This document shows positions 27,557-29,103 of a stretch of DNA of 64,000 nucleotides, in pieces. The notes under the pieces are model-generated. The model did not search any database and had not been told where the DNA came from. It was given only the letters and a program-made list of their open reading frames with translations. Position 1 is the stretch's first letter. Each line of letters starts with the position of its first letter. Both the position numbers and the translations under genes were made by a program. This DNA comes from Pseudoxanthomonas kaohsiungensis (GTDB taxonomy: Bacteria > Pseudomonadota > Gammaproteobacteria > Xanthomonadales > Xanthomonadaceae), in the NCBI RefSeq assembly GCF_010211765.1, contig NZ_PDWO01000006.1, positions 124,001 to 188,000 of the forward strand, given 5' to 3'.

Positions 27557-28360
27557 ATGACCGCCGTGGTCAAACCCCTGCCGCGCCTGAGGCTGCAAGG
27601 CTTCAACAACCTCACCAAGGCGCTGAGCTTCAACATCTACGACGTCTGCTACGCGGTCTCCGAGGACGAGCGCCAGCGCTACATCGAGTACATCGATGAG
27701 GCGTACAACGCCGACCGCCTGACCCAGATCCTGACCGACGTGGCCCAGATCATCGGCGCCAACATCCTCAACGTGGCCCGGCAGGACTACGACCCGCAGG
27801 GCGCCTCGGTGACCATCCTCATTTCCGAGGAGCCGGTCATCGACAAGAAGGCCGCCGGCAAGGAAGTGATCTCCGACGCGGTGGTCGCGCACCTGGACAA
27901 GAGCCACATCACGGTGCACACCTACCCGGAGACGCACCCGCAGAACGGCATCGCCACGTTCCGCGCCGACATCGACGTGGCCACCTGCGGCGTGATCTCG
28001 CCGCTGAAGGCGCTGAACTACCTGATCGAGAGCTTCGAGTCCGACATCGTGGTGATGGACTACCGCGTGCGCGGCTTCACCCGCGACATCAAGGGCAAGA
28101 AGCACTACATCGACCACAAGATCAACTCGATCCAGGACTACCTGGCGAAGAACATCAAGTCCCGCTACGAGATGATCGACGTCAACGTCTACCAGGAGAA
28201 CATCTTCCACACGAAGATGCACCTGAAGGAGTTCGACCTCGACACGTACCTGTTCGAGGAGAAGGCGCGCAACCTCTCGTTCAAGGAGCGCATGCGCGTG
28301 GAAGCGCTGCTCAAGCGCGAGATCGAGGAACTGTTCCACGGGCGCAACCTGTCCGAGTGA
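27557..28360 (+). CDS. speD: S-adenosylmethionine decarboxylase proenzyme
   Basis: This 267-residue protein is the long E. coli-type SpeD that gives decarboxylated SAM for spermidine synthesis. It self-cleaves at Lys115-Ser116 in [13 protein letters not shown] to make the pyruvoyl cofactor from the Ser. The C-terminal part [22 protein letters not shown] is conserved. AGAGG lies directly before ATG 27557 with only one base between, so the spacing is unusually short; no better start is visible downstream. speE is not in the window. Confidence 0.95.
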
Positions 28361-28430
28361 CCGGGGAACCGCGCGCCGCCGCGGGTGGCGCGTGGTTCAG
28401 GCGGGCGGTGCCAGGATGGCGCCACGAATT

Positions 28431-28482
28431 CGCGGGACGTCCCGCGCGCGGCCCCGGCCGCGGACCAAGACCGACGGCGGTC
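28431..28482 (+). promoter_or_regulatory. Candidate guanidine-II (mini-ykkC) riboswitch upstream of gdx
   Basis: Two hairpins with four-base loops lie in tandem. P1 pairs 28431-28436 (CGCGGG) with 28441-28446 and has loop ACGT. P2 pairs 28469-28473 (GACCG) with 28478-28482 and has loop ACGG. The linker is 22 bases. Guanidine-II aptamers are two such hairpins with ACGR loops and control gdx/sugE genes, and the next gene is a gdx homologue. P1 deviates from the consensus in its last loop base (T for A/G). P2 shares 28478-28482 with the 5' arm of the terminator that follows, which suggests transcriptional control. Confidence 0.6.
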
Positions 28483-28512
28483 CGGAGCCATGCTCCGGGC
28501 CGCTTTTTTTTT
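28477..28512 (+). terminator. Rho-independent terminator in the gdx leader
   Basis: A 12-bp stem (28477-28488 with 28492-28503, loop CAT, one G-T pair) is followed by nine T residues. It lies 116 bases after speD and 54 bases before gdx. It could simply end the speD transcript. Because its 5' arm also forms half of the P2 hairpin at 28469-28482, it could act as the riboswitch expression platform. Confidence 0.9.
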
Positions 28513-28565
28513 GTTCCCCGTCCCCGGGGTCGTTGCCGGGCGGCGTTCACCGAGGAGAATCGACG

Positions 28566-28886
28566 ATGGCGTGGACCTACCTGCTGCTGGCGGGACTGTT
28601 CGAGATCGGCTTCGCCCTGGGCCTGAAGCACACCGACGGCTTCACCCGGCTGTGGCCCAGCCTGGGCACCGCGGCCGCCGCGGCCGTCAGCCTCTACCTG
28701 ATGACCCTGGCCATGCGCTCGATTCCGGTCGGCACCGCCTACGCGGTGTGGACCGGCATCGGTGCGGCCGGCGTGGCGGCGATGGGGATCATGCTGCTGG
28801 GCGAGAGCGCCTCGCCGATGCGGCTGGCCTGCATCGGCCTGATCATCGCCGGCGTGATCGGCCTCAAGCTGGCATCGCCGGCTTGA
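28566..28886 (+). CDS. gdx: SMR family guanidinium exporter Gdx (SugE)
   Basis: This 106-residue protein has four membrane helices and the small multidrug resistance pattern. The conserved Glu of helix 1 is in [27 protein letters not shown], and the phrase [11 protein letters not shown] is the Gdx/SugE form (E. coli: GLKYTHGFTRL), not the EmrE form. Gdx exchanges guanidinium for protons. The [10 protein letters not shown] segment of helix 3 is also typical. GAGGAG at 28552-28557 is the ribosome binding site. The upstream leader carries a candidate guanidine-II riboswitch, which supports the substrate. Confidence 0.92.
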
Positions 28887-28931
28887 CCGCAACGCCCGGG
28901 CTGCCGAGCCGCACGGGCGCCGACATGGACC

Positions 28932-29002
28932 GTAGAGCGGGGCTTGCCCCGCTGCGCCTCACCCGGCGCCGATCAAGAGCAGCGGGGCGAGCCCCTCTCT
29001 AC
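28932..29002. repeat. SMAG/REP-like inverted repeat (GTAG-ended), copy 2
   Basis: The left arm 28932-28954 is identical over 23 bases to the left arm of the copy at 22662. The right arm 28980-29002 is its inverse with two mismatches. A further GTAGCGGAGCGAGCCCCG half-element starts at 29017. The element occupies the space between gdx and coq7 (28887-29103), where no gene is seen. Confidence 0.85.
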
Positions 29003-29103
29003 GAGTAGCGTCCTGCGTAGCGGAGCGAGCCCCGTCCTCGAGGTTGGCCGAAGAATCGGCAGGTCGAGCGGGCGGGTGGGCACAGCGCGGACGAGGGTGC
29101 GCC

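Follow-up and report, generated by a model that had tools for sequence, protein, structure and literature searches.

A probable guanidine-II-type riboswitch with transcription termination as output between speD and gdx in Xanthomonadaceae

Introduction

How is a guanidinium exporter gene controlled when it lies behind a gene of polyamine synthesis? The question is raised by a locus of Pseudoxanthomonas kaohsiungensis in which speD, a small RNA element and gdx follow one another in that order on one strand, the element beginning 70 bases past speD; the locus is part of a stretch of 64,000 nucleotides that is called the window below. The element is like guanidine-II (mini-ykkC, RF01068) in having a pair of G+C-rich hairpins, spaced by 22 bases, whose tetraloops share an ACG core and a closing G-C pair, and, as a proposed ON switch, in standing ahead of a SugE/Gdx gene. 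In the accessible text of four papers the output of guanidine-II is translational, or most probably or proposedly so (PMC5486947, PMC7544219, PMC9094411, PMC12186494).

We consider it very probable that positions 28431-28512 form a guanidine-II-type riboswitch with transcription termination as its output, turned ON by antitermination, and comparison of related sequences supports this interpretation, which a preliminary description of the locus had put forward. A form that controls termination throughout a family would mean that the smallest guanidine aptamer of two hairpins can drive another type of output, and one aptamer with two output types would then divide a single bacterial family.

Results

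The locus and its hairpins

The features of the locus are collected in Table 1. At the place where the preliminary description had put a Gdx/SugE gene there is indeed an ATG, followed by a protein that passes the family cut-off and has 6wk5 as its best match among solved structures (E 2.3e-25, compared with 1.4e-12 for the best EmrE); 6wk5 and 8vxu are its nearest solved structures, both ranking before EmrE.

Table 1. Features of the speD-gdx locus, in positions of the window
Feature	Position	Strand	Basis
speD (S-adenosylmethionine decarboxylase)	27557..28360	+	TIGR03331 466 bits (cut-off 256); start and stop codons checked
P1 hairpin, 6 bp, loop ACGT, G-C closing pair	28431..28446	+	CGCGGG-ACGT-CCCGCG; kept in relatives
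Pi, inserted hairpin, 6 bp, loop CCCG	28447..28462	+	CGCGGC-CCCG-GCCGCG; abuts the 3' side of P1
P2 hairpin, 5 bp, loop ACGG, proposed antiterminator	28469..28482	+	GACCG-ACGG-CGGTC
Terminator stem-loop, 12 bp (28477-28488 / 28492-28503)	28477..28503	+	conserved, covarying
T-tract, T9	28504..28512	+	sequence read
Shine-Dalgarno-like GAGGAG	28552..28557	+	outside P2 and terminator; sequence read
gdx/sugE, small multidrug resistance family, guanidinium exporter by family	28566..28886	+	NF008512 133 bits (cut-off 126)

P1 and P2 agree letter by letter with the coordinates, stems and loops described before, and of the earlier anatomy P1, P2, the terminator and gdx all stand, while a third hairpin, Pi, had been overlooked. 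When the leader of the window was shuffled 20,000 times with its dinucleotides preserved, two ACG-loop hairpins with Watson-Crick stems of at least four pairs arose in 0.15% of the shuffles, and with stems of at least five pairs in 0.015%. The loop of P2 fits the ACGR tetraloop, and that of P1 fits its ACG core and not the R. Among the 46 aligned leaders treated below, whose rows were selected for ACG loops with the last base left free, the last loop base of P2 is R in all 46 and that of P1 is A or G in 42, T in three and C in one, so that the ACGT loop, called a variant in the preliminary description, is a rare one.

In the guanidine-II crystal structure the fourth loop base is extrahelical, and guanidinium is contacted by the closing G-C pair and by A, C and G of the loop; for the class as a whole a guanidinium concentration of ~50 uM is reported there (accessible text of PMC5486947). 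The closing G-C and the loop A, C and G are present in both P1 and P2 of the window, and because both hairpins have these binding residues, known from crystals, guanidinium is the expected ligand. The P1-P2 linker, which contains Pi, measures 22 bases in the window and 20-45 (median 22) in the 46 aligned leaders; the window is thus within the 7-40 nucleotides given for guanidine-II (accessible text of PMC7544219), and at least one relative lies just over that range.

Conservation of the hairpins in related leaders

Leaders were gathered by a Gdx protein search of 198 genomes of the family, which gave 148 matches in 126 genomes, and all leaders were taken, so that the hairpins played no part in the choice. 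speD lies upstream in 58 of them, and 46 were aligned, the P2 of one (L034) being chosen by hand. The unaligned leaders are six with a changed P2 (L023-L026, L029 and L053), one with a P2 one base short (L032), two with a broken P1 (L075 and L134) and three in which speD is 20-48 bases off and there is no leader (L129, L132 and L144); taking these last three from the 58 gives a set of 55 leaders of at least 100 bases.

Two ACG-loop hairpins are found in 47 of the 55 leaders, compared with a mean of 0.03 and a maximum of one in 100 shuffles of the set, and with any other loop triplet at most one of the 55 has two such hairpins. P1 and P2 proper are present in 46, the second ACG hairpin of L023 not being P2. 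The preliminary description had named beforehand, as the outcome that would speak against it, the loss of the paired hairpins or of their ACG loops from orthologous leaders; they are kept in these 46 of 55.

Supplied with the 46 leaders and no structure, RNAalifold recovers P1, Pi and the terminator. For P1, Pi and P2 together, 94.3% of the alignment cells are paired (shuffled 87.9%) and 54 cells have two-sided changes (shuffled 14.6); on the number of further pair types, which is the weakest measure, 8 of 500 shuffles do as well. With the terminator in place of P2, the corresponding values are 97.5% (shuffled 88.9%) and 102 (shuffled 30.7); control structures slid along the alignment reach 34-55% paired. 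Pi is variable in sequence and keeps its pairing, with 93.8% of cells paired and two-sided changes in all five aligned pairs, and in the set found by pattern (see below) at least five pairs are possible beside P1 in 72 of 84 linkers, versus 13% of shuffled linkers.

The six leaders with a changed P2 belong to part of one genus (g29); their P1 loop is still ACG and their P2 loop is now ACCNA. Each of these six genomes carries another gdx (L131, L139, L140, L142, L143 and L151), and some 30 bases ahead of its start lies a hairpin with an ACG loop, at which RF01068 gives 23 bits in four of the six (G163, G179, G124 and G071). Sensing by the speD-linked copy has possibly been lost or changed in this group.

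The terminator and its overlap with P2

A terminator scan of 28250-28600 gives a single site, 28476-28504 on the + strand, where shuffles give a mean of 0.4. The G+C-rich stem of 12 bp is followed at once by the T9 tract, which is the pattern of an intrinsic (Rho-independent) terminator, and the sequence bears out the earlier description of such a structure (28477-28512) that reuses the 3' half of P2. The overlap is exact: 28477 is both the last base of the P2 loop and the first of the terminator, and 28478-28482 are both the 3' arm of P2 and the terminator base. Since these bases are shared, P2 and the lower terminator are mutually exclusive.

The most informative column pair is 67-78, within P2. 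It is A-U in 24 of the 46 leaders, G-C in 22 and broken in none, and base 78 faces its terminator partner, base 97, as U-G in 23, C-G in 22 and U-A in one, the partner being G in 45 of 46. Base 67 follows base 78, which selection on the terminator alone would not bring about, so that P2 is kept for its own sake; the earlier view of P2 as a real pairing is borne out by a compensatory change independent of the terminator. When base 67 was left free in the pattern-found set, which has species in common with the 46 leaders, the pair was A/T in 58, G/C in 23, G/T in one and unpaired in two (n = 84). The outer P2 pair 66-79 is formed in just 21 of 46, so the common core is 4 bp, three of its pairs being invariant, and the loop base R covaries with the terminator (G-C 29, G-U 11, A-U 6). 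On the best speD tree, most of whose branches are weak, the state of the P2 pair switches at least four times, with only one independent pair on starred branches.

These changes bear on one alternative, a constitutive speD terminator followed by gdx on an unregulated promoter of its own downstream, with P1 and P2 incidental. The T9 intrinsic terminator is present, the element begins 70 bases past speD and the terminator would end speD in any case; incidental hairpins, however, would not retain ACG loops in 46 of 55 leaders, nor would the 5' arm of P2 change in step with the 3' arm (A-U/G-C) when the partner in the terminator is held at G. A crude scan finds no sigma-70-type promoter in 28250-28600, and thus none for the leader itself either, and the T-tract and the gdx start are 53 bases apart. 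We regard this reading as improbable, although the alternative stated in the preliminary description, that the terminator is no more than the end of speD, may hold in part, in that the terminator would end speD when guanidine is absent; the retained hairpins speak against the rest of it.

The T-tract is weak in 14 of the 46 leaders, with fewer than six T among the nine bases past the stem, and three of the aligned leaders (L052, L062 and L068) have just 2-3 T in these nine bases. Where the T-tract is poor, termination may be inefficient, absent or brought about in a different way, and in these three, which are without a T-tract, the output may be other than intrinsic termination. Their terminator stem is also longer (GGCGGTCCGGA...TCCGGGCCGCCGTC).

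Folding order in silico

In growing transcripts of the window P1 forms first, then Pi and then P2. A third fold has a slight advantage over P2 at 28491 and 28494, P2 or most of it returns at 28497-28500, and from 28503 the terminator prevails. In minimum-energy folds, 43 of the 46 leaders have P2 as soon as its last base is made, and 42 have it after transcription of the upper terminator stem, which is itself folded in 29; the full-length leaders all have the lower terminator (46 of 46) and none has P2. The intermediate folds of L015, L018 and L019 are without P2. When P2 is formed in the window, the upper hairpin that remains stops six bases short of the T-tract. The full terminator of the window is 8.9 kcal/mol lower than P2 plus the upper stem, and this difference, together with the third fold at two steps, means that a ligand would have to act kinetically.

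The mechanism that we propose follows this order, with antitermination as the expected output. RNA polymerase, whether it reads through speD or starts at a promoter between speD and the element, would make P1, Pi and P2 in turn. With guanidinium present, the two ACG loops would kiss across Pi and P2 would be held; its 3' arm would then be unavailable for the terminator base, the upper hairpin would stop six bases before the T-tract and transcription would continue into gdx. With guanidinium absent, the terminator would displace P2 and transcription would end ahead of gdx.

The leader may be fed by transcription of speD. P1 starts at most 18 bases past the speD stop codon in 12 of the 46 leaders, and since a promoter of its own is hardly possible in so short a gap, the RNA of these 12 is probably made by read-through from speD; in wider gaps, such as the 70 bases of the window, a promoter within the gap is possible. 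Right behind the speD stop codon of the window there is a strong G+C-rich hairpin (28364-28397) without a T-tract, which by eye is absent from the nearest relatives (L007 and L008).

Relation to ordinary guanidine-II

The check with the Rfam mini-ykkC covariance model, which the preliminary description had named, did not come out in its favour: RF01068, whose gathering score is 32 bits, does not match the site even with E values as high as 10 allowed, in searches of 1401 and of 206 bases, nor in a search of the genome itself. Four matches below threshold in leaders of the speD-gdx type, worked out by hand (G155, G158, G189 and G063), were set aside as evidence, P1 there being paired with upstream sequence and P2 not reached; they are neither support nor refutation.

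The element is a variant of the guanidine-II kind and not a member by the Rfam model. It differs from guanidine-II in the extra hairpin Pi between P1 and P2, in the loop-proximal P2 stem, which is CCG/CGG instead of GGG/CCC, in a terminator that overlaps P2 in place of Shine-Dalgarno masking, and in its site between speD and gdx, where the Rfam model does not list it.

The two forms occur in different genomes of the same family. RF01068 scores above its cut-off in 48 of the 198 genomes and the speD-gdx form is present in the 46 genomes of the alignment, with an overlap of zero between the two lists, which were compiled by hand. The ordinary guanidine-II of the family stands before a SugE/Gdx-type gene too. 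Among 49 leaders of the family that lack speD and have two ACG hairpins, P2 starts 25-32 bases ahead of the ATG in 46, and no T run of more than three follows P2 in any of the 49. A linker stretch of at least five bases complementary to the Shine-Dalgarno region is found in 20 of these 49, and by a strict test there is none in 29, so that the idea of an anti-Shine-Dalgarno linker in most ordinary leaders of the family was dropped. The 49 are a translational form, clearly so in a part of them. Beyond the family, no T run of five or more was seen by eye between P2 and the next ATG at 12 of 15 ordinary guanidine-II loci in the class (those without L291, L298 and L302); the ordinary locus L295 has four T between P2 and ATG. 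The motif GGTCGACGGCGGCT, about 43 bases ahead of the gdx paralogues L128, L146, L149 and L153, was considered as a further P2 and rejected; by eye it encodes SVDGGF near the end of the upstream frame, a peptide that we take to be typical of a dehydrogenase family.

The speD-gdx form might be translational as well, with the terminator secondary or degenerate. The published view of the class, from the four papers cited in the Introduction, and the weak T-tracts in 14 of 46 leaders would agree with this. Against it, the window has T9 behind a 12 bp stem, and its GAGGAG sits 39 bases downstream of the T-tract, outside P2 and its linker; the translational platform, which is described for guanidine-II and does not strictly define it, is not found at the site. 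The 49 leaders without speD, with P2 close to the ATG and T runs of at most three, are also built differently. Translational control is, we believe, very improbable here, less probable than any other reading in this work, and a termination-controlling riboswitch is the reading that we retain.

Distribution of the speD-gdx form

A scan of genome contigs with a P1/P2 pattern, which is blind to forms that differ in a fixed base, gives 88 matches, of which 84 lie beside speD and/or gdx: 80 have speD before and gdx after, three have speD only, one has gdx only and four have neither. The sequence of one speD-only match ends 81 bases past it (L235), another has gdx further down (L237) and the third is L288; the match with gdx only (L265) is at base 4 of its contig. 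The four without either gene (L213, L227, L252 and L287), from Promicromonospora, Streptomyces, Solirubrobacterales and Brachybacterium, are taken as chance. The named genera of the matches are mainly Pseudoxanthomonas, Stenotrophomonas, Xanthomonas, Luteimonas and Arenimonas, and predicted guanidine sensing is thereby extended to named genomes of these genera. Two metagenome bins, labelled Gammaproteobacteria bacterium (L203) and Ramlibacter (L249), have the speD-switch-gdx order of the window's family, and the L249 contig is perhaps wrongly binned.

A model, R1, which was built on family members and is hence biased towards the family, finds 52 matches of at least 57 bits when 299 genomes of the order are searched; each of them is in the window's family, and the next best match has 37.7 bits. 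Of the 52, 30 were examined for their neighbours, and speD and gdx are there at 30 of 30. In 369 genomes of the class, matches of R1 at E <= 1e-4 occur only in four genomes, which are of the window's family. The architecture is conserved in Xanthomonadaceae/Lysobacteraceae.

Discussion

The constant company of speD leaves room for an attenuator of the same shape that answers to a signal other than guanidinium, either an RNA-binding protein or another guanidino compound, such as agmatine, which speD would connect with polyamines. speD is upstream at 30 of 30 loci found by the model and at 83 of the 84 pattern-found loci with either gene (the exception is L265), the loop-proximal P2 stem is CCG/CGG and not GGG/CCC, and in a crystal agmatine has been observed to occupy the binding pocket of guanidine-II (accessible text of PMC5486947). 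The contact residues in both loops are, however, those of guanidine-II, and the gene controlled is of the SugE/Gdx exporter type, as with the ordinary guanidine-II of the family, so we judge a different signal to be quite unlikely. A more elaborate idea, which we also rate as improbable, is that a guanidine-II aptamer became part of the speD transcript and was remodelled, with a hairpin added and the P2 stem inverted, as a gate from polyamine-synthesis transcription into the exporter gene; it would sense a guanidino polyamine precursor (e.g. agmatine) or how agmatine and guanidine are balanced, and would tie export to polyamine synthesis. Guanidinium remains the ligand that we expect.

Among known guanidine switches, guanidine-I (ykkC) is alike in being an ON switch that prevents a terminator (accessible text of PMC12186494 and PMC5486947) and unlike in having a different aptamer; no match to it is listed at the site in the Rfam search of 1401 and 206 bases. 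Guanidine-IV (GGAM-1) is likewise a guanidine switch before sugE with a predicted terminator, and it is unlike the present element in its other fold, without the conserved ACG trimers and with a potential pseudoknot (accessible text of PMC7736828); we claim no relation to it. The same text gives six motifs from regions upstream of sugE in all bacteria, none of them given there as Xanthomonadales, and extends GGAM-1 to Proteobacteria (PMC7736828). Guanidine switches in Alcanivorax and Herbaspirillum are other than the present form (accessible text of PMC9788540 and PMC7011215). Within the accessible text of the open-licence literature (including PMC9481103, PMC7266159, PMC2864571 and PMC3766115) we found neither a terminating guanidine-II nor a guanidine-II in Xanthomonas.

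The kissing of the P1 and P2 loops has been questioned in print (accessible text of PMC7544219). With P1, Pi, P2 and the terminator in about 80 bases, the speD-gdx element offers a possible compact test of loop kissing versus the terminator during transcription.

Within the window's genus the leader is the same and speD is at least 96% identical, yet Gdx is either 85-100% or just 52-56% identical to that of the window (L108, L122, L127, L130, L136 and L147, compared with L006-L008), and it seems that one gdx was replaced by another while the switch in front of it was kept. Just past gdx, at 28930-29004, there is a long imperfect inverted repeat of the type AGCGGGGC...GCCCCGCT; Rfam scores it as mir-2300 and other microRNA families, all under cut-off, and the repeat, probably a palindromic repeat element, is taken to have no relation to the switch.
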